Virus record (IMG/VR): IMGVR_UViG_3300011010_000140
Coordinates: 3,414-27,071 of that record
Length of the DNA: 23,658 nucleotides
Direction: 5' to 3' (one strand)
Source: a virus
Shown here: positions 7,099 through 18,645 of the stretch, one piece after another
Position numbering within the stretch: position 1 is the stretch's first letter
Layout: every line of letters begins with the position of its first letter
Program-made: the position numbers and the translations under genes
The notes under the pieces: model-generated
Seen by the model: the letters and a program-made list of their open reading frames with translations, nothing else
Databases searched by the model: none
Told to the model about the DNA's origin: nothing

Positions 7099-7366
7099 TG
7101 ATGTCAACAACCTTCTTAAGCATTGATGCTTGAAGTTGCTTAACCTCAGCTACATAGATGCTGGCGTCATCATCAAACTCTTCACTCATACCAAGTTGCA
7201 AGTCAGTTACGATAGCTTGTACACATTTGGTCTTAGTTAAGATGCTACCTGTGTGGAAAGCCTCAATCCATACGTCGTAGCTATTGGCTTGCATAGCCTC
7301 ATTATTGGTATGCTTTAGTAGCTCAATCCACTCATCATAGGTTTTTTTGATGGTATCGTCTTTCAT
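7079..7366 (-). CDS. Small acidic helical protein (95 aa), unknown
   Basis: 95 residues, mostly charged and helical (DDTIKKTYDEWIELLKH, EVKQLQASMLKKVVDIINA), with no known motif. The frame extends nine codons further upstream, but the ATG at 7366 is chosen. It forms an ATGA overlap with the stop of the upstream gene and has AAAGGG at a workable distance. It is the last gene of the minus-strand early operon and its 3' end overlaps the end of the convergent virion gene by 20 bases. Function is unknown; a small accessory protein is the most that can be said. Confidence 0.7.
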   Translation of the reverse strand: MKDDTIKKTYDEWIELLKHTNNEAMQANSYDVWIEAFHTGSILTKTKCVQAIVTDLQLGMSEEFDDDASIYVAEVKQLQASMLKKVVDIINAQQA

Positions 7367-8067
7367 ATGTCTTTCCCTTTCGTATGAAACCACATTCTTA
7401 GGCTGGTCATGCCGCCATCTATCAATACATGATTTGGAAACCGTTGGTACTTATGGTACAGTGGGTGATTAATGAAGTTCTTCATTAGTAGGTAGGCATC
7501 AGCATCAGGCGGAGACATGCCCATTGCACGGTCAGTATCAATGCAACGAACTGCAAATGTCTCACCAAACTCTTTTTCGATTGAGTGTACCTGATCTCCT
7601 AGCAAACCAATAATAGTAATCCTAGGCTTAAACAGTCTGTTGCCTTCGTAGGCTGGGTTGTGCTTTTGAACACTAAAGAAATGCTCCAGCTCCTGCACGT
7701 CTTTTAGCTTGCAACGCATTTCATCAGCAATCTTATTAGCCAGATGCGTCGCAATGGCGTTGATGGCGTCATCTACCGGGTCAATAGCCTCTACCAGAGT
7801 AACTTGATGAGTCACAGAGGCCTCAGTTACAGGGGCTGTAGGGGTCTTTATAGGCTTAATGCCTTCTAAGGTTCTAGCCCTTACTTCTTTGGTGATTTCA
7901 ACACAGCTTGAAGGGCTGTTTACGGGCCGCTGCCTATGCAAAGGTAGCACCAGCTTTTGTGCAGCTTTAACTGCCTCAAGCAATTTATAGCTTCTAAAAT
8001 GCCGTAACTCCACAGCCTGCGTGATTACAGCTTCTCGTTCTTCATGTGTCCAGAAAACTTTTGTCAT
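7363..8067 (-). CDS. Putative DNA-binding protein with DUF2325-like C-terminus
   Basis: 234 residues in two parts. The N-terminus (VFWTHEEREAVITQAVEL, then AAQKLVLPLHRQRP) looks like a Myb/SANT or HTH-type helical domain, with a short Pro/Thr linker near residues 60-90. The C-terminal ~85 residues start with RITIIGLLGDQV and contain DADAYLLMKNFINHPLYHK and LIDGGMTSL. The order of a Gly-containing beta strand, an Asp-Ala-Asp strand end, a His-containing helix and a final GG-x-T/S-S-L is how I remember DUF2325 Rossmann-like domains. This is an unverified resemblance. The gene has its own leader element with GAAAGG and ends in an ATGA overlap with the small gene downstream. A regulator or sensor of the modification operon is possible. 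Confidence 0.6.
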   Translation of the reverse strand: MTKVFWTHEEREAVITQAVELRHFRSYKLLEAVKAAQKLVLPLHRQRPVNSPSSCVEITKEVRARTLEGIKPIKTPTAPVTEASVTHQVTLVEAIDPVDDAINAIATHLANKIADEMRCKLKDVQELEHFFSVQKHNPAYEGNRLFKPRITIIGLLGDQVHSIEKEFGETFAVRCIDTDRAMGMSPPDADAYLLMKNFINHPLYHKYQRFPNHVLIDGGMTSLRMWFHTKGKDI

Positions 8068-8093: not shown

Positions 8094-8117
8094 GTGGTTG
8101 CCCACGGAAAAATTATA
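8094..8117 (-). promoter_or_regulatory. GTATAAT box followed by small stem-loop and T-run
   Basis: On the minus strand, TATAAT (8117-8112) overlaps the stop codon of the gene at 8113. Six bases later comes GTGG-GCAA-CCAC (8105-8094), a four-base-pair stem with a GNRA-type tetraloop, then ATTTTTTT. A weak -35 match, TTCTCA, lies 16 bases upstream of the box. The unit can be read as a promoter with a hairpin at the transcript start, or as a weak terminator/attenuator. The stem is short, so confidence is modest. Confidence 0.4.
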
Positions 8118-8895
8118 CATTCAAAAGCCACTTTGAGAAGGCAAATTCAGGGTTTACGCTCTTCTCAATCAAGACGTGAGCTTCATACCTATTTATTCTA
8201 GGCGGCGCATCAACTACCGGCACATGCTCTTCATTGCTAAGAATGCTATTGAACATAGTCATTCTGGATTCATACACATGGAATGAACCGGCAGAGATTG
8301 TTAGTGTCCCCATTTCAACGTTAAGCAAAGTAGCCACAATTTCTTGCAGGAACGAGAAGGTAGGTAGGTCGTTTGCCATGCCCCACAAGATATCTTGGCT
8401 TCTCATGATTGCACGAGCATTAAGCCTACCATTCCGTAGTCTAAATTCTATGGCAATAGTGCAAGGTACATCTTTGGCTTCAGGATCCATGTGGTCAGCA
8501 CTGGAGCCATACATTGGAATAACAGCTCTACGGCTCATAGGATCCTTGGTCAGTACCCGCTGAATAAACTTAATGCCATGTACACCAAACCAGTAGCTAC
8601 CATAGTTGCTGTTAAGTTTGCCATTGAGAACTATCTTGCCCCACTGTGCAGCATGCTCAGCAATAGACAGGTCAGTTGGATCGGCGTGAATGTACCAAGC
8701 CATCTCACGCTTAAGGTACTTAACATTGAAGTTACGACCTACAAAGGAATTGAACCTTACAAAAGGATTGCAAGTATAGGAGACATTCTCAAGCTCTAGG
8801 CATCTTTCACCATTGGGGCTTGACCACTGGCCTTGATTTGCAAGAACCTTGTATAGATCAATTAGTTGCGCTTCATTTTTAATCTTGAGGTCCAT
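8113..8895 (-). CDS. Deoxycytidylate 5-hydroxymethylase (thymidylate synthase fold)
   Basis: 260 residues of the thymidylate synthase superfamily. Visible active-site elements are paired Arg122-Arg123 in SRRAVIPMY, nucleophile Cys145 in VPCT, Arg165-Ser166-x-Asp168 in MRSQD, and His206-x-Tyr208 in GSFHVYES. Canonical thymidylate synthases have an Asn (E. coli Asn177) that reads the uracil edge of dUMP; here Asp176 occupies it (WGMANDLP). From memory, T4 gp42 dCMP hydroxymethylase has the same MRSxD...ND pattern, NSNYG and GS-x-HVY. Asp at this site is known to favour cytosine nucleotides. The likely reaction is therefore dCMP plus methylene-tetrahydrofolate to 5-hydroxymethyl-dCMP; plain methylation of dCMP is the main alternative. 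ATG 8895 follows GGAG at seven bases and overlaps the kinase gene by 17 bases, so translation is probably coupled. Confidence 0.75.
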   Translation of the reverse strand: MDLKIKNEAQLIDLYKVLANQGQWSSPNGERCLELENVSYTCNPFVRFNSFVGRNFNVKYLKREMAWYIHADPTDLSIAEHAAQWGKIVLNGKLNSNYGSYWFGVHGIKFIQRVLTKDPMSRRAVIPMYGSSADHMDPEAKDVPCTIAIEFRLRNGRLNARAIMRSQDILWGMANDLPTFSFLQEIVATLLNVEMGTLTISAGSFHVYESRMTMFNSILSNEEHVPVVDAPPRINRYEAHVLIEKSVNPEFAFSKWLLNV

Positions 8896-9814
8896 ACTCT
8901 AACTCCGTAATGTGGTAAGGTTGATTGGGGTAATTTTGCATGTGATACAAAGGCGGTGGCAGCTTTTGTGCCTGCACGTTATTGTTTAAAGACCACGTAT
9001 AAGCATTGTTGCCTAGCGCATAAACACGAGCTGGCTTTAGCTTACGAAGAAACAAAACATCTGTAGGTGTACCTTGGTAGGATTGCGTGTTGATCCAGTA
9101 GCATTGGCCCTCAGATATGCCTTCACGTTCTAAAGTATCAGCCAACATGCGGCTTGGGCCATCATTGTCTAAGAAGTTAATGAAGGGGACTATGGCTGCA
9201 CCGGCCTTTATGTTAGCTCTAGGGCCCTTATCACAAAGCATTAGGTAATTACCTTCCTTAAAGCAACCGCCACCTTCAGCCTCATTCTGAATGCTTGCAG
9301 CCTTGATCTTTTCTATCAGATCATCTACTTCATCGTATTGGTAGTCATAGTGCACAACGGGTAATGAGGTCTGGTATTTTAGCGTTTCATACTCGTTATA
9401 GACCGCACTAAGCTGTGTAACAGTATCAAGGTATTCATGATCTTGTCTGTCTACAAAAGTATTGACGCATAAAGTAAAGTCAGGCTGGCAATGCACGACC
9501 ACACCACCACGAGATAGTGCTACTCTTTCCAGCATACGTTTCCTAGGCATGTCCACGCGGTTGGCGCCTTTGCGATAAACAGTGCCGTAGATAGGCTCGG
9601 ACAGCCAGCAACGATCCATGATAACATGGTCATTGTATGTAAGGGCCTGCGACATAGCACGGAAGTATGTCTTACATAACTCTTCAGCAACTAAACCTTT
9701 GAAAGGGCCATGCTTAACAATTTGCGTCATGCGGTCTTGTTGGAAATGCTGTCGCAAAGCCTCTGATAAAGTTGTTTTGCCTGCTCCGTCAGGGCCTTCA
9801 AGTATGATAATCAT
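8879..9814 (-). CDS. Deoxynucleoside monophosphate kinase fused to UDG-like domain
   Basis: 311 residues in two domains. The N-terminal ~170 residues form a P-loop nucleotide kinase of the thymidylate kinase type, with Walker A GPDGAGKTT (7-15), Asp67-Arg68 in MDRCWLSEPIYG and a LID-like stretch of basic residues near 82-94. The C-terminal part (about 185-300) has CDKGPRAN, PFINFL, YWINTQ and YALGNNA followed by a Pro-rich segment. That order resembles the uracil-DNA glycosylase superfamily domain often seen in phages. Conserved catalytic residues there are not clear, so it may bind or sense bases rather than excise them. In context the kinase may raise hydroxymethyl-dCMP to the diphosphate, as T4 gp1 does. 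The start forms an ATGA overlap with the upstream gene. The kinase call is firm; substrate and C-terminal role are inference. Confidence 0.8.
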   Translation of the reverse strand: MIIILEGPDGAGKTTLSEALRQHFQQDRMTQIVKHGPFKGLVAEELCKTYFRAMSQALTYNDHVIMDRCWLSEPIYGTVYRKGANRVDMPRKRMLERVALSRGGVVVHCQPDFTLCVNTFVDRQDHEYLDTVTQLSAVYNEYETLKYQTSLPVVHYDYQYDEVDDLIEKIKAASIQNEAEGGGCFKEGNYLMLCDKGPRANIKAGAAIVPFINFLDNDGPSRMLADTLEREGISEGQCYWINTQSYQGTPTDVLFLRKLKPARVYALGNNAYTWSLNNNVQAQKLPPPLYHMQNYPNQPYHITELEYGPQD

Positions 9815-10707
9815 TTAAGAAAGCTTTCTAATTTTTTTAGCGTATCTTGCTTTGTTGCTAACTTTGCTGATAGTGCAATTGCCTGTTCTGCAGCCATGAT
9901 GATTTGCCGTTCATCACTCATGCCTTCAATCTCACGTAAAGTGTAACTGTACGCAGTGCTTATGACTGCAAGCTCCTTGGGGTCACCGCCTAAGATTGCA
10001 CCTGCCTGTGCTGCATGTAAGTACCTAATACGCCACCAGCCACAGCCGGCATGCGCATAGGTTGGACACAAGACGCCTTTGTACTCACCATACTCCCAGA
10101 CAATATCACTTTCAAGCATACGTGGTTGGCCTAATGCCTTGCCACCAATGCTATGTACTGGCCAACTAAGGTTTTGCTTTGCCGCCCATTCATGCGCTTC
10201 AGTTGATAGTGATGCGTTGTACCACTGAGTCTTACGACGAGGCCAAGCCATTTGATGGCAGGCAGGCTGCTCATATAAAGGTGATGGGTCCCATTGCAAA
10301 ATGGTGTCTACATCAAGCCCCATCTTCTTAGTGTTACCCCAAGGAAAAAGCGGAGCAATCCACTTATGCTCACGTAAATCACTTGGAGGTATAACATCAC
10401 TCCATGAATCAAAGATTTTTTGGAATGACCAGTCATCAAGGCAAATGTATGCTGTCATGCATTCTTTTAGAACACGTTTAGCGCCTTCAGGATGTACTGC
10501 GTTTTTATCTAATGGGTAAACATACAGGAAAACTGCGTCATACTTACGTAGATCAGTATCTGCAGTTACAGCTATGTGATCTACATCATGGCCTTGGCTA
10601 AGGTATGCTTCACGCATTAGCTCGGGTATGGAAACAAACTTAGTTGAGCTTGCTCTTTGGGGATGATTGGTATGCGTTTCGGTAACGCCCGTAATGAGAA
10701 TTTTCAT
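9811..10707 (-). CDS. Putative GT-B glycosyltransferase, possibly DNA-modifying
   Basis: 298 residues. The N-terminal half begins with strand MKILITG. It is followed by a helix with FVSIPELMREAYLSQGHDVD and then KYDAVFLYVYP and YICLDDW, the alternating pattern of a Rossmann-like GT-B donor/acceptor domain. The C-terminal half contains YKGVLCPTYAHAG, GWWRIRYLHAAQAGAILGGD and REIEGM, resembling the GT-B C-terminal domain where a short helix and loops hold the nucleotide sugar. I do not see a family-defining signature, so this is fold-level recognition. ATG 10707 is preferred over an in-frame TTG at 10722 because GAAAGG lies seven bases upstream. The gene overlaps the kinase by ATGA, and the hydroxymethylase follows. 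Glycosylation of hydroxymethylcytosine in DNA is the natural hypothesis; another Rossmann enzyme is the alternative. Confidence 0.5.
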   Translation of the reverse strand: MKILITGVTETHTNHPQRASSTKFVSIPELMREAYLSQGHDVDHIAVTADTDLRKYDAVFLYVYPLDKNAVHPEGAKRVLKECMTAYICLDDWSFQKIFDSWSDVIPPSDLREHKWIAPLFPWGNTKKMGLDVDTILQWDPSPLYEQPACHQMAWPRRKTQWYNASLSTEAHEWAAKQNLSWPVHSIGGKALGQPRMLESDIVWEYGEYKGVLCPTYAHAGCGWWRIRYLHAAQAGAILGGDPKELAVISTAYSYTLREIEGMSDERQIIMAAEQAIALSAKLATKQDTLKKLESFLK

Positions 10708-10714
10708 ATGTATT

Positions 10715-10729
10715 CCTTTCAATTATCAA
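10715..10729 (-). promoter_or_regulatory. Leader/RBS element copy 2 (TTGATAATTGAAAGG)
   Basis: A copy of the repeated leader element that also encodes the last codons and TGA stop of the helicase gene. Its GAAAGG is the ribosome-binding site for the ATG at 10707. Confidence 0.6.
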
Positions 10730-12116
10730 CAAGCGCCATTGTATCACGGTTGACATAGTCACGTACCGCATTCAATAGTTTTTGTTGTGTTTTGTCTTTG
10801 CGCTTGACTGCAGAAAGAATTGCTTCATCAACAGTGTCACGAGCTATGATGTGATGAACCACAATGTGATTCTTTTGACCTTGGCGCCAGAGCCTGCGAA
10901 TGAACTGTTCGTAGATTTCAAGTGACCAAGTTAATGAATACCATATGACTGCATGGCCTGAGCCTTGTAAATTAAGCCCATGGCCTGCAGACATTGGATG
11001 TGCTAACAATACTTGTATGTTGCCTGCATTCCAGTCATTGAGGATTTTATCGAGCTTATTGCCTATCACGCCACTGCCAATGATTGGTGCATTTGGAAAT
11101 GCCTTTTTTAGCCTTTCCAAGTCATGCGCAAAATGGTACCCAATAATGCAAGGTTGACCTGAAAGTTCTTCAACCAATTCCAATGCGGCATCAGTCTTGC
11201 CGTCATGTAAATGCATTGTGATTCTTCCATTGCCAGTGCCATCATCATCTAAATAGGAACCACCATTGGCTATTTGCTGACCCTTCATAACTGCAATAGC
11301 GGCATTGGCAGCTGTAATGTTGCCTGAAGCCATTTCAATAGTAAGGTCATTTTCAAAGGTTGTGTAGAGCTTTTTTGCAACAGGTGGTAGATCTATATAT
11401 ACGTTGTTGTAAGTAAGCTCTGGAAGGTCTAGATGGTCAAGCGCCGCCATTCGTAGTACCTTGTCTTCCAGCTTTTTATAGATTCTTTGCTCACCATCAG
11501 GTTGTAGCTTCCATTCATAGCCACCGTAACCTGAAGGGTAAAAGTATTCTTGCTTGAACCGTGTTACAAAAGGCCCGAAGGTGGCGCCTTGGTCAATGAT
11601 GAATTGCGGGCCAAAGATGTCAAGCAGACTGTTAGGTGCAGGTGAGCCTGTTAAAGCCCAACGACGATCAAACTTGTTTAGCAAAGGCTTAAGGCACTTA
11701 AACCGTTGTGTGCCAGTATTCTTCATGTAACTGATTTCATCAATCACCAAAGTATCAAATGGCCAAGGCTTACCATTGAACTGCGCAGCTAGCCATTGCA
11801 GGCCTTCGTAGTTCATAACATAGATGTCGTGGTTTTGCTTAAGCACTTTGTTTTTATGGCCACCATGCAAGATGCCTACAGAATAATCTGCAAACTGATC
11901 CCACTTACTAACCTCGGCAGGCCATACTCCATGCACAGGGCGTAAAGGCGCAAGCACAAGCATCTTCTTTGCAATAGCTTTTAATTTCAACGTACGGTAT
12001 GCAGAAAGCACAATGGCAGTTTTGCCAAGACCCGGGTCAAGCCACAATGCGCCTGAGCCATGTGAAATAAGAAACTTTACAGCTTCTTTTTGATACTCAT
12101 GCGGTTCCCAATACAC
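10719..12116 (-). CDS. SF2 helicase, SNF2/DEAD-like
   Basis: 465 residues with a full set of superfamily 2 motifs: Walker A DPGLGKTA (about 27-34), motif II DEIS in TLVIDEISYMK, motif III LTGSPAPN, motif V AGHGLNLQGSG and motif VI QFIRRLWRQGQ. The layout matches SNF2-type phage helicases that work in replication, recombination or repair by ATP-driven remodelling of DNA. The longest frame starts at a TTG (12122) only one base from the Shine-Dalgarno. The GTG two codons later (12116) has AGAAGGG seven bases upstream and is chosen. The gene overlaps the upstream nuclease by 20 bases. Such SF2 helicase plus VRR-NUC pairs are common in phages and probably act together on branched DNA. The function class is firm, the exact role inferred. 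Confidence 0.88.
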   Translation of the reverse strand: MYWEPHEYQKEAVKFLISHGSGALWLDPGLGKTAIVLSAYRTLKLKAIAKKMLVLAPLRPVHGVWPAEVSKWDQFADYSVGILHGGHKNKVLKQNHDIYVMNYEGLQWLAAQFNGKPWPFDTLVIDEISYMKNTGTQRFKCLKPLLNKFDRRWALTGSPAPNSLLDIFGPQFIIDQGATFGPFVTRFKQEYFYPSGYGGYEWKLQPDGEQRIYKKLEDKVLRMAALDHLDLPELTYNNVYIDLPPVAKKLYTTFENDLTIEMASGNITAANAAIAVMKGQQIANGGSYLDDDGTGNGRITMHLHDGKTDAALELVEELSGQPCIIGYHFAHDLERLKKAFPNAPIIGSGVIGNKLDKILNDWNAGNIQVLLAHPMSAGHGLNLQGSGHAVIWYSLTWSLEIYEQFIRRLWRQGQKNHIVVHHIIARDTVDEAILSAVKRKDKTQQKLLNAVRDYVNRDTMALVDN

Positions 12117-12384
12117 GATCAATCCCTTCTTTTGAATCTAACACATGAACTGTATGTCCAAGCTTACCAAGATCATTATGCACCTTGGCTTGAATAGGTG
12201 CTACCTTACCGCCGGGGCGCTTTAGTTCTACCCATAGCACCTCACCATTTTCCAATGGCACAATTCTGTCAGGCCAACCACGAGCAAACCTAACATGCAA
12301 TTTTAGTGTAAGTAGGCCATGCTTTTTACATTGCGCTGAAAAATACCGCTCAAGGTCGCGTTCAAGAAGCACTTTAGTTGCCAT
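12097..12384 (-). CDS. VRR-NUC domain nuclease
   Basis: 95 residues, close to the usual length of a stand-alone VRR-NUC protein. It shows an early Glu in LLERDLERYF, then GWPDRIV and VLWVELKRPGGK, then a Gln in PIQAK. These are the restriction-endonuclease-like core motif (D...ExK) and the conserved Q of the family. It should be a metal-dependent, structure-specific DNA nuclease, and its coupling to the SF2 helicase gene supports work on replication or recombination intermediates. An in-frame TTG exists at 12411, but the ATG at 12384 is preferred. It overlaps the previous gene by 11 bases and gives an N-terminus fitting the domain. Its Shine-Dalgarno is weak (AAAGAAAAG), so translation may depend on coupling. 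Confidence 0.88.
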   Translation of the reverse strand: MATKVLLERDLERYFSAQCKKHGLLTLKLHVRFARGWPDRIVPLENGEVLWVELKRPGGKVAPIQAKVHNDLGKLGHTVHVLDSKEGIDRVLGTA

Positions 12385-14086: not shown

Positions 14087-14848
14087 TCATACATGCCTCA
14101 TGTGAATCATAGGCGTGCAGTTAAAAAAGTTCTTATAGACAAAATGTTCTTTGCGATGTACAGCAAACATGTTTTTAGAACGTAAGTATGTGTAGAAGTT
14201 TTTCTTGATTTGCCTGTTGGTGTACACCTTATCATCAAAGCCTACGTACCTGTAAAAATGCCCCGGTGCTTTTACAGAAAAACTAGAATTTTCAACCAAG
14301 TATTTCATGTCACCAAGCTGATCAAACAAAGTATGAGGCTCAATAAAGTGTTCAAAGCATTCAAAAGCAAACACAGCATCTACGGGCACAGGTGTTTCAA
14401 CATGCTGAATGTTGTTTATGCCTATTAAACCTAATAACCCAAACAATACTTTAGCTCTTTCAACTTGTGCAGGCGCAGTTTGATGATAGTAAATTGTTGA
14501 GTTGGGAAATGCTTTTGCAAGCACTACACTAGAACGGCCATCACCGCCATACAAATCAAGTATAGTTTCAGGCACAATGTTTAAGTCTTTAAAAAACTTT
14601 AGTGACGTCATCAAATTAATTCGAGTGTAATACTTAAAGCACACATCAAGATTGTTGATATATTTTGGGTGGTCATACACACTAAAGTTGTAAGCAATGT
14701 CTTTAGGGTGCGCGGTTGAGCCAATGTGATGGTTAGCATACCAAATGTCATTAAGTATATCATCAACCTCAAGCATTTCTGCTTTAGACTTTGTACACGC
14801 TTTTGCGTATGCTGATGATTGTCTTTTAGCGTCTTCAATACAAATCAT
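14087..14848 (-). CDS. Class I SAM-dependent methyltransferase, substrate unknown
   Basis: 253 residues. Residues about 93-115 form the SAM-binding motif I (TILDLYGGDGRSSVVLAKAF), with the glycine loop GGDG. Further on comes VDAVFAFECFEHFIEP, the motif IV/post-IV region typical of class I small-molecule or nucleic-acid methyltransferases. There is no DPPY/NPPY or PCQ motif, so it is not a standard N6-adenine, N4-cytosine or C5-cytosine DNA methylase. The N-terminal ~90 residues are helical and may bind the substrate. It overlaps the DNA polymerase gene by ATGA, so it is made together with the replisome. It could act on a modified base, on a sugar attached to DNA, or on something unrelated; the sequence does not decide. 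Confidence 0.75.
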   Translation of the reverse strand: MICIEDAKRQSSAYAKACTKSKAEMLEVDDILNDIWYANHHIGSTAHPKDIAYNFSVYDHPKYINNLDVCFKYYTRINLMTSLKFFKDLNIVPETILDLYGGDGRSSVVLAKAFPNSTIYYHQTAPAQVERAKVLFGLLGLIGINNIQHVETPVPVDAVFAFECFEHFIEPHTLFDQLGDMKYLVENSSFSVKAPGHFYRYVGFDDKVYTNRQIKKNFYTYLRSKNMFAVHRKEHFVYKNFFNCTPMIHMRHV

Positions 14849-16719
14849 TTTGTGTCCTGATAGGTGTTGCCAATTTTGTAATCACTAACCATAGGCACAT
14901 CCATTGCCAAAGCATTGCACATAGACCATGTTAGCGTTTCAGCCTCGCGGTCAATAAACGCCTCAGGTGCTGAGATGACCAGTTCATCATGCACACTAAG
15001 AAGTAGCCTACTACCTTTACGACGACTTTGGTATAGCAGCATGGCAGCCTTTGCCTGATCTGCGGCAGAGCCTTGAATCAAAAGGTTGACACCTTTATAG
15101 TCAAACTCACGCAATCTACCGTTGATAATCTTAGGCGGTTCCATCTTCACCAGACGCCCGCCAAGGGTTTTTATGGGTTGGCCTAATTTATACCTAGTAC
15201 GCATGGTTGATTGCATCATCCTGAGGCCCGGAGCCACCGCAGATGTATATGCATCCATCAACGTTTTGGCCAAAGAATAATCCACATCCAACATCTCACT
15301 AATCTTTTGTGGGCCAGCCCCATAAAGAATAGCAAAAGATACGCCTTTGGAATACGTACGTGATACTTCCTGATTGGCAGCCTCTGACATTAGCTTGGCA
15401 GCATACGTATGTAAGTCTGCACGTGCATCTTCTTGGTACTGCTTCATAAGGTTACCACCTTCAAAGTGCGCAAAGATCCTGAGCTCTTGTGCATTGAAGT
15501 CACATGCCACCAGCTTGTGGCCTTCATCAGGAAGAATGAAACTACGTATAAGTGGTAATGGCGCAATGTCTAAGTCTGTTGGAATGAGGATTTCGTTTCT
15601 TCCCATTCCTGTGGTTGCTCCGGCAGCGACAATTTTCGGATAACGGACAGGCGCATTTTGAAAGTTGGGGGTAGAAGAAAGTCTGCCGGTACGTGTGCCG
15701 CCACGTTCACCTCGAACACTATTCCAGTTGGTGTAGATTCGACCTGTAGATGCAGAAGCTTCAAGCCAGGGCTCAATGAAAGTTGACAAACATGTTGATA
15801 GGTTGGCTCTATATCGTAGGACACCTTTTAACTCCTCATGCGTAATTAGTGCATCCAAAGTTTCTTTGTCAGCCCTAGGCTGACCTTTGTCAGTTGTAGG
15901 CCACCCATTTGTTTTGTCCCAGTAATCGGTGAGATAAATACTATCGACTAGCTGTTTATCGCTGTCAATATTTATTTCAGGAGACTTCAATAATGCGCGT
16001 ACCCAGACACTACATTTCTCAATATCTACTATTGCTTGCTGCTTGGCTTGTTGCAAACCTTCCCTATCCACACGTACACCTAGACGTGAGTTTTCAAGCA
16101 ACATGGGCATCAAAGCCATCTCACGTTGATAAGCCTCATCTTGTGCAGGCACCACATGCTCGTAAAGATGCGCAAAAAGCAAAGAAGTAAGCCTTACATC
16201 AGCTGAAGCATAATGACCTACAAGATCCACTGGACCACGACAAATGTATGCACCCCAAGTGGACTTTTTACGATGTGCTTCAGGAACGTTTGCAATAATC
16301 CAATCACGTAATTCATCACGTTCATCAGGCTTTGCAAGCCCATAGGTAGTTACCAATTCTTTTAACGAAAGAGATTGGACATGTGGGTCATGCAGGAAAG
16401 CAAGAATAAGAGTATCATGTATCCTGTAGGGTTCAGGTAAAGGAAGATCAAGATGAGTTTCGGCAACATCAAGATCAAACATAGCGTTATGAAAACAGAT
16501 TTCACGATCAGATTCATAAATCAATTCCAAAATTGTTTTCACAATTGCCTTGGTTGTGTTGTTACCCGTTGTATGACCAAATGCGTGATAGCCATCAGGG
16601 TACTCGCCTTCAGGATCGTAAATGGCCAAGCCAACGGGCACAGGCGGGTACTTTGGCCGCGCTGCAATGCCTTCGGTTTCAAAGTCTAAAAAGACGGGTT
16701 TTTTCATACGGGGTTTCAT
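14845..16719 (-). CDS. Family A DNA polymerase with 3'-5' exonuclease
   Basis: 624 residues, with proofreading exonuclease and polymerase domains but no 5'-3' exonuclease, as usual in phages. Exo motifs: FLDFETEG, CFHNAMFDLD, YASADVRLT. Polymerase motif A is LVACDFNAQELR, motif B RTYSKGVSFAILYG (the O-helix with Lys, Phe and Tyr) and motif C LSVHDELV, so all catalytic carboxylates are present. Motif A reads DFNAQELR rather than the common DYSQIELR. The open frame runs back to 16815, but that extension lies inside the upstream gene and encodes a Cys-rich stretch from the wrong frame. ATG 16719 makes a TAATG junction with the upstream stop and has AAGGGA nine bases before it. It is the replicative polymerase of this phage. 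Confidence 0.95.
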   Translation of the reverse strand: MKPRMKKPVFLDFETEGIAARPKYPPVPVGLAIYDPEGEYPDGYHAFGHTTGNNTTKAIVKTILELIYESDREICFHNAMFDLDVAETHLDLPLPEPYRIHDTLILAFLHDPHVQSLSLKELVTTYGLAKPDERDELRDWIIANVPEAHRKKSTWGAYICRGPVDLVGHYASADVRLTSLLFAHLYEHVVPAQDEAYQREMALMPMLLENSRLGVRVDREGLQQAKQQAIVDIEKCSVWVRALLKSPEINIDSDKQLVDSIYLTDYWDKTNGWPTTDKGQPRADKETLDALITHEELKGVLRYRANLSTCLSTFIEPWLEASASTGRIYTNWNSVRGERGGTRTGRLSSTPNFQNAPVRYPKIVAAGATTGMGRNEILIPTDLDIAPLPLIRSFILPDEGHKLVACDFNAQELRIFAHFEGGNLMKQYQEDARADLHTYAAKLMSEAANQEVSRTYSKGVSFAILYGAGPQKISEMLDVDYSLAKTLMDAYTSAVAPGLRMMQSTMRTRYKLGQPIKTLGGRLVKMEPPKIINGRLREFDYKGVNLLIQGSAADQAKAAMLLYQSRRKGSRLLLSVHDELVISAPEAFIDREAETLTWSMCNALAMDVPMVSDYKIGNTYQDTK

Positions 16720-16904
16720 TAGTTGGTGTCCCTTGGAAGACATAAGAACGTGCGGTTTTGCGCAGGTGCAACTGCCTTTTGCTTTGCAATTAATTGCGTT
16801 GCAACTTTTTGGCATGCATCTTTAGTTTTAAAAGTTTCTATGCTTTCGGCATCAGACATAACGCCATTTGTGATGGTCACTACAACTAAAACAAAAGCGT
16901 ACAC
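16719..16904 (-). CDS. Small exported-type protein with two Cys (61 aa)
   Basis: 61 residues: a hydrophobic N-terminus (YAFVLVVVTITNGVM) that looks like a short signal peptide or membrane anchor, then a polar part with Cys30 and Cys55 (KDACQKVATQL and RTFLCLP). This layout, a leader plus two cysteines able to form a disulfide, recurs in small unnamed phage proteins. The longest frame begins at a TTG (16952), but the GTG at 16904 has GGAG eight bases upstream. It also lies one base after the stop of the 34-residue membrane protein, so coupling is likely. The stop overlaps the polymerase start (TAATG). It may act in the periplasm; no function is known. Confidence 0.65.
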   Translation of the reverse strand: MYAFVLVVVTITNGVMSDAESIETFKTKDACQKVATQLIAKQKAVAPAQNRTFLCLPRDTN

Positions 16905-17857: not shown

Positions 17858-18223
17858 TTACTTGCGACGAACGGTAAGTTCCCAGACATCCGATGTGGTT
17901 GTCCCGGGTATGGCTTCACCTGCATCCCACCGCTCACGGAAGGCAGTTGAAGAAAGCCGCTTATGCAGCAATTCGAATTGGCCACTTTCTGCCACGTACT
18001 TATAGAACGTGTTCCAATCATCTATGGCAGGATGGCGTGTAAGTTTCATTGTGCAAGAAGCCTTGTCATTGGCTGCTTGACTAATGCCGGCATGGCTCAT
18101 AAGATCCATGATGTCTTTTTCAAGCTCGGCCAATTGCTTGGTGCACTGCTTGACCTCCTCACTAAGATCTTCACGCTTGGCCTTGGTAGTTACAAACTGA
18201 TCGATGAGTTCATTGATATTCAT
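17858..18223 (-). CDS. Conserved phage protein, helical N-terminus (121 aa)
   Basis: 121 residues. Residues about 10-45 form a charged coiled-coil-like helix (KAKREDLSEEVKQCTKQLAEL). The rest is a compact domain with HPAIDDWNTFYKYVAESGQF, LLHKRLSSTAFRERWDAG and IPGT near the end, which looks conserved and ordered. I have an impression of this pattern in uncharacterised proteins next to phage single-strand annealing or SSB-like genes, but cannot name it. It forms an ATGA overlap with the MazG-like gene upstream and lies 18 bases before the 260-residue protein. A role in phage DNA metabolism is likely from context only. Confidence 0.7.
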   Translation of the reverse strand: MNINELIDQFVTTKAKREDLSEEVKQCTKQLAELEKDIMDLMSHAGISQAANDKASCTMKLTRHPAIDDWNTFYKYVAESGQFELLHKRLSSTAFRERWDAGEAIPGTTTSDVWELTVRRK

Positions 18224-18645
18224 TTGGATGACCCCTTAGCTAATGCTTCTTTTCTTGTTGCTTGAATGACTCGCGTAAGTTCAGGCTCAGGCGGTACCCA
18301 ACCCACGGGCTTAATGACATCGTATTGAGAGCCACGAGTAGAACGCATGAGCTCATTAGCAGGTACCTTGCGCATGTTGGCCTTGTGCACAACATCAAAA
18401 AGCTTGTCAAAAGGTAGCCCCATTGCATGAGCAACGCCAAGTGCAACGTAGACCAAGTCAATGATTGCATCGGCAGCGTCAACCAAGCTTTCCTCTTCAC
18501 AAGCTTTTAGGTACTCACTCAATTCCTCCATGATAAAGCGAGCAAAGTAACTTGCCTCAGCAGGTGAAAGGAACTGTGGATAGTTGGTGATTGGCAAATT
18601 CATTTTTTGTCTGAAGATGCCAACTTTTTCAAAGTTAGTCGCCAT
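18220..18645 (-). CDS. MazG-like nucleotide pyrophosphohydrolase
   Basis: 141 residues of the all-alpha NTP pyrophosphohydrolase superfamily. The metal-binding signature is visible: EELSEYLKACEE (E-E-x2-E, about 41-52) and DAADAIIDLVYVALG (D-x2-D, about 57-71), then a helix with NMRKV. Such enzymes hydrolyse dNTPs to dNMP plus pyrophosphate. T4 gp56, which removes dCTP and supplies dCMP to the hydroxymethylase, belongs to the same broad superfamily, so this protein could do that job here; general MazG house-cleaning or dUTPase-like activity are alternatives. The gene overlaps the upstream one by 11 bases and the next by ATGA. Confidence 0.82.
   Translation of the reverse strand: MATNFEKVGIFRQKMNLPITNYPQFLSPAEASYFARFIMEELSEYLKACEEESLVDAADAIIDLVYVALGVAHAMGLPFDKLFDVVHKANMRKVPANELMRSTRGSQYDVIKPVGWVPPEPELTRVIQATRKEALAKGSSK

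Follow-up and report, generated by a model that had tools for sequence, protein, structure and literature searches.

A block of three overlapping genes lies on the minus strand of a 23,658-nucleotide stretch of viral DNA (the window), which corresponds to positions 3414-27071 of the 43,919-base IMG/VR record IMGVR_UViG_3300011010_000140. In reading order, a gene for an SNF2 helicase (10719-12122) is followed by genes for a GT-B glycosyltransferase (GT; 9811-10707, 298 aa from its ATG), a kinase of the thymidylate kinase fold with a uracil-DNA glycosylase (UDG)-like C-terminal domain (8879-9814, 311 aa) and a dCMP hydroxymethylase-like enzyme of the thymidylate synthase (TS) superfamily (8113-8895, 260 aa). 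The coordinates and overlaps given in an earlier note on this DNA were confirmed, with 4 nt (ATGA) shared by the GT and kinase genes and 17 nt by the kinase and TS genes. A purine-rich ribosome-binding site precedes the GT start at 10707, and an alternative upstream start is a TTG at 10722. We consider the block to be, in all probability, a compact cassette for cytosine hypermodification, by which 5-hydroxymethylcytosine (hmC) would be made, incorporated and glycosylated in DNA.

The SNF2 helicase-GT-kinase-TS order was kept in every sufficiently long IMG/VR relative (59-100% identity), with GT identity falling to about 60%. As the order recurs across these relatives, the open reading frames of the cassette did not arise by chance. 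Among 144 IMG/VR loci with a close GT (a count in which certain contigs occur twice and 8 loci stop ≤1.1 kb from the GT), the genes directly downstream included that of the kinase in 140 and that of the TS in 136. The GT-kinase-TS order persisted where TS identity drops to 67-78%. No near DNA match to the window was found in the phage collection.

The product of the last gene (8113-8895) is strongly predicted to be a dCMP hydroxymethylase. It matched PF00303 (E 3e-18), and in a PDB profile search its best match was the CMP 5-hydroxymethylase MilA (E 2.5e-34), followed by thymidylate synthases and, ranking below these, T4 dCMP hydroxymethylase (E 4e-20). Alignment with E. coli ThyA and T4 gp42 showed that the nucleophile, Cys145, is retained, and that Asp176 occupies the position of Asn177, the dUMP-specificity residue of ThyA; T4 gp42 and MilA have Asp here too. 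This Asp was kept in 119 of the 120 distinct TS sequences that cover the position, and an Asn to Asp change at this site shifts the substrate from dUMP to dCMP (PMC8670742). The window protein also has Ser166 and Arg122, a pair of the type that selects deoxyribose over ribose and that is replaced by Ala and Lys in MilA (PMC5175136). An Asp that precedes the catalytic Cys by three residues, together with a Ser-x-Tyr motif, marks hydroxymethylation as opposed to methylation, according to a structural study of the T4 enzyme (PMC6400193). This signature is present as Asp142 and Ser96-Asn97-Tyr98, where the E. coli ThyA counterparts are Leu and Pro. Within the window clade (n = 78), Ser96 and Tyr98 were found in 78/78 sequences and Asp142 in 77/77, one sequence not reaching that position. 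The protein thus carries all of the tested residues that separate T4-type dCMP hydroxymethylases from ThyA and MilA, and it is because Asp176, Ser166/Arg122, Asp142 and Ser96-x-Tyr98 are present and conserved that the assignment, already suggested in the earlier note, is strong.

MilA is the best-scoring solved relative and, like the window protein, uses Asp for cytosine, but it differs in having Ala176 and Lys133 (ribose) in place of the Ser/Arg pair (deoxyribose). A CMP hydroxymethylase of the antibiotic type was rejected, as Ser166 and Arg122 are of the deoxyribose type. Of 21 IMG/VR TS proteins resembling that of Stenotrophomonas phage AXL3, one carries Asn in place of the specificity-determining Asp, which provides a natural contrast for the rule.

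The GT (9811-10707) had no sequence match in Pfam, NCBIfam or the PDB, and matched solely a PHROG of unknown function. An AlphaFold (AF2) model, built from an alignment of 71 sequences (the window protein plus IMG/VR proteins), was of high confidence (mean predicted local distance difference test score, pLDDT, 91.4; predicted template modelling score, pTM, 0.88). When this model was compared with known structures by VIA-align, the top four chains were all T4 beta-glucosyltransferase (BGT; best Z 18.3 over 282 of the 298 residues, root-mean-square deviation 3.5), with SenB (Z 17.1) and T4 alpha-glucosyltransferase (AGT; Z 15.7) coming next. The earlier proposal of a GT-B-like enzyme is therefore borne out at the level of the modelled fold; that note had regarded a fold other than that of a glycosyltransferase as fatal to its interpretation, and a glycosyltransferase fold is what was found. 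Invariant residues of the GT family include D91, D92, R226, R228 and E245. In our reading, mapped by eye from the register of the motifs, D91/D92 may correspond to Asp100 of BGT, and R228 to Arg269. There is good support from the model for a glycosyltransferase of the BGT fold, predicted to act on hmC in DNA. No sequence homology to T4 BGT was detected by hhalign (probability 2.7%, E 0.017, using a single BGT sequence).

The N-terminal part of the kinase (residues 1 to ~178) is a P-loop kinase of the thymidylate kinase type (PF02223, E 8.5e-7, above the cut-off). Its AF2 model (pLDDT 91.0) was closest in the PDB to YorR (3kb2, Z 15.2), with thymidylate kinases at Z ~15. Both results agree with the deoxynucleoside monophosphate kinase that the earlier note had described. 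T4 gp1, whose annotation lists dTMP, dGMP and HMdCMP as substrates and excludes dAMP and dCMP, was matched by hhalign in the P-loop region only (probability 6%), and no homology to it was found beyond the P-loop. The gp1 structure (1dek) was not among the 50 structural matches listed for the kinase, which is no evidence of absence. There is fair support for the predicted role as a kinase of hydroxymethyl-dCMP (hmdCMP).

The C-terminal domain of the kinase (residues ~183-305) gave PDB profile matches that, up to E 1, were all uracil-DNA glycosylases except one (best E 0.007, to UDG family 4), and a Pfam UDG domain was found in 5 of 19 relatives (best E 0.0055). The UDG-like identity of the tail, as first noted from motifs, is thus weakly but specifically supported by its sequence. 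The tails of the window clade lack the UDG motifs: CDKGPR stands in place of the VGE-type motif 1, and the HP of motif 2 is PP in 36/36 sequences. In a set of 43 window-clade sequences, all 43 had CDKGPR and PP(P). In contrast, HP is kept in 21/21 divergent relatives, and the divergent tailed kinases of AXL3 and phage G retain VGE- or NPG-like motifs together with HP. A link between the tail and cytosine modification is visible: in AXL3, phage G, MW202621 and DSL-LC01, the tailed kinase is encoded beside an Asp-type TS. That the tail reads a modified base is a conjecture. None of the papers searched describes a kinase-UDG fusion. Bacillus phage G (L303; gp313, gp315, gp317, gp319) is likely to be another cytosine-hypermodified phage, since one region of its genome encodes a tailed kinase (with the UDG-like motifs NPG and HPAY), an Asp-type TS and a protein annotated as an alpha-glucosyltransferase.

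More distant homologues of the GT, at 23-30% identity, were found in actinophage DSL-LC01, Gordonia phages, a Manatee Spring siphovirus and cyanophage C48C1. An Asp-type TS is also present in the GT-bearing Gordonia phage Sixama, in DSL-LC01 and in the Manatee Spring phage MW202657. The GT gene of the actinophage lineage has its own paralogue as the next gene downstream (L027:12148-13137, with homologues in L152-L231; hhalign probability 100, E 4e-45), so that many genomes of this lineage carry tandem GT pairs. These pairs recall the two glucosyltransferases of T4. UDP-galactopyranose mutase is encoded between or beside the GTs in certain genomes of the lineage, and directly downstream of the GT in C48C1 (L295:21023-22033). 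The mutase gene adjoins the GT in several unrelated phages (L027:11031-12128, L156, L160 and L295), hinting at galactofuranose as the sugar in those phages. None of the papers searched connects UDP-galactopyranose mutase with hmC.

Several other genes of the window bear on the cassette. A family A DNA polymerase (PolA; 14845-16815, minus strand) matched PF00476 (E 6e-56) and has an exonuclease domain (PF01612), so the description of the virus as a PolA phage was correct. A nucleotide pyrophosphohydrolase of the MazG/PRA-PH type (18220-18645, minus strand; PF01503, E 6e-16, phrog_671) is the counterpart of AXL3 gp30 (39% identity), which in AXL3 is encoded directly upstream of the kinase. PF01503 domains co-occur with TS domains on modified-cytosine contigs in MetaGPA (PMC8670742), and by analogy with T4 gp56 the MazG protein may be a dCTPase-like accessory that lowers dCTP. 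Neither a dCMP deaminase nor ThyX was found in the virus's own 43.9-kb record, which may be incomplete. Since none of the proteins scanned could be recognised as a sugar-nucleotide enzyme, a host-derived sugar is expected. A conserved 234-aa protein is encoded at 7363-8067; in many relatives its gene comes immediately after that of the TS, with 33-43% identity in the more distant ones. A weakly class I methyltransferase-like protein (14087-14848), whose gene overlaps that of PolA by 4 nt, is possibly responsible for a further modification step.

From the gene order and its conservation, the substrate-specificity residues, and the folds of the kinase and GT, we infer the following pathway. The TS-like enzyme would make hmdCMP, which the tailed kinase would convert to the diphosphate and a host diphosphate kinase to hmdCTP. 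The dCTP pool may be lowered by the MazG-type pyrophosphohydrolase, encoded elsewhere in the early region, and hmC would then be incorporated by PolA. Finally, the BGT-fold GT would place a host-derived sugar on hmC in DNA, probably shielding the phage genome from restriction or other bacterial defences. More speculatively, the UDG-like tail could serve as a non-catalytic base-recognition domain, through which the kinase would accept hmdCMP and reject dCMP.

A number of observations weigh against this pathway. Foldseek alone puts SenB first and BGT lower for the GT model, and for this reason BGT and SenB are near ties as structural matches. The sequence profile of the GT does not reach T4 BGT, and a GT-B fold in a model is not enough to establish DNA as the acceptor. 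High structural scores are also reached by SenB and many cell-wall GTs, and C48C1 has a GT homologue but no TS-family gene in its whole 156-kb genome. C48C1 is the one exception to the association of GT with Asp-type TS, and the tie between this GT family and dCMP hydroxymethylase is thus not strict. Moreover, no homologue of the window GT was found in the 20.9-kb cassette region of AXL3, which is also missing from the list of tblastn matches. Experiment does offer an independent hint in favour of the pathway: of 37 restriction enzymes, 35 leave AXL3 DNA uncut, and the only ones to cut it are two whose sites consist of A and T alone (PMC7504290). This is the pattern expected of complete cytosine modification; as no GT of the same family was found in that region of AXL3, its resistance supports cytosine modification and not glycosylation. 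In addition, the Ser96 of the window clade is a Gly in the TS proteins of AXL3, DSL-LC01 and phage G, so these phages need not share exactly the same chemistry. The cassette might yield only 5-hydroxymethylcytosine or 5-methylcytosine, with the GT acting on a virion protein or a glycan of the host cell surface. We think this unlikely, as the single best structural match is T4 BGT, the GT gene overlaps its neighbour within the operon and co-occurs with an Asp-type TS across several distantly related lineages of phages, and the GT-kinase-TS order survives the divergence of the TS.

Two further explanations concern the kinase and the TS. The kinase could phosphorylate hmC within DNA, with the base flipped out by the UDG-like tail, in the manner of the SP10 and M6 5-hydroxymethyldeoxyuridine (5hmdU) DNA kinases that act on 5-hydroxymethyluracil; the phosphorylated base would then undergo replacement or decoration. 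UDG-superfamily domains do bind flipped bases, and the SP10 5hmdU DNA kinase is among the structural neighbours (BFVD rank 47). However, the kinase domain resembles thymidylate kinases and YorR far more than it does the SP10 enzyme, the early region yielded neither an identifiable pyrophosphorylase-type partner nor any identifiable radical S-adenosylmethionine or pyridoxal-phosphate gene, and a free-nucleotide hmdCMP kinase is a step that would otherwise be absent from the pathway. All of this makes a DNA kinase very unlikely. The database names, thymidylate synthase and thymidylate kinase, would fit ordinary nucleotide metabolism, in which the two enzymes raise dTTP and the GT is an unrelated neighbour. 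This is hardly credible, as the change of Asn177 to Asp removes dUMP specificity (PMC8670742), Thr replaces His147, and the C-terminal closing tail of TS is absent; these same three features led us to reject thymidylate synthesis as the activity of the protein. AXL3, furthermore, carries ThyX in addition to its Asp-type TS.

A bolder extension of the proposed hypermodification pathway is that phage DNA glycosyltransferases include a third, sequence-unrelated family, often in tandem paralogous pairs, which attaches non-glucose sugars to hmC (galactofuranose where UDP-galactopyranose mutase is adjacent), and that the dead UDG domain of the window clade kinase is a reader that passes only modified dCMP. 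We regard this as doubtful. If the pathway itself is correct, hundreds of uncultivated phages would have genomes with glycosylated cytosine, the work of a GT family whose link to the T4 enzymes is invisible to sequence searches. This would explain the resistance of common environmental phages to restriction and CRISPR, and could provide new DNA-modifying reagents as well as a natural example of how the fold of a DNA-repair glycosylase can find a new use when attached to a nucleotide kinase.

How does the cassette compare with known systems? T4 (gp42, gp1, beta-gt/alpha-gt and gp56) has the same succession of dCMP hydroxymethylase, hmdCMP kinase and GT-B-fold DNA glycosyltransferase, so the likeness to T4 drawn in the earlier note holds for function. 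It does not extend to ancestry that sequence can detect: the window GT and kinase are analogues of BGT and gp1, without detectable homology. The same note had placed the T4 functions at separate loci, which is true of gene 1 but not of beta-gt and gene 42; these are adjacent, co-directional and 23 bp apart, so that hydroxymethylase and GT genes are clustered in T4 too. The window further differs in that its kinase has a UDG-like tail and sits inside the operon, in a possible MazG-type dCTPase instead of the gp56 type, and in replication by PolA. Clustering in itself is therefore not what sets the cassette apart. Its distinctive features are that the kinase gene is part of the cluster, that this kinase has a UDG-like tail, and that the GT belongs to a family which sequence does not trace to T4.

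The 5hmC carbamoyltransferase clusters found by MetaGPA (PMC8670742) likewise combine an Asp-type TS with a partner enzyme that acts on the hydroxymethyl group, with PF01503 co-occurring, but there the partner is a carbamoyltransferase and not a GT. AXL3 shares the cluster of NTP-PPase, tailed kinase and Asp-type TS, encoded in a row as gp28-gp30 (the kinases are 31% identical over their full length). It differs in having a methyltransferase and a hypothetical gene where the window has the GT, and in the Gly that replaces Ser96 in its TS. DSL-LC01, Gordonia phage Sixama and their IMG/VR relatives share the Asp-type TS, kinase, PolA, SNF2 helicase, MazG protein and GT family. In these phages, however, the GT gene lies apart from kinase-TS and is usually followed by its paralogue, and some of the genomes carry UDP-galactopyranose mutase. 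Overall, there is good support for the window cassette being a variant of the known hmC-glycosylation strategy that is widespread in environmental phages.

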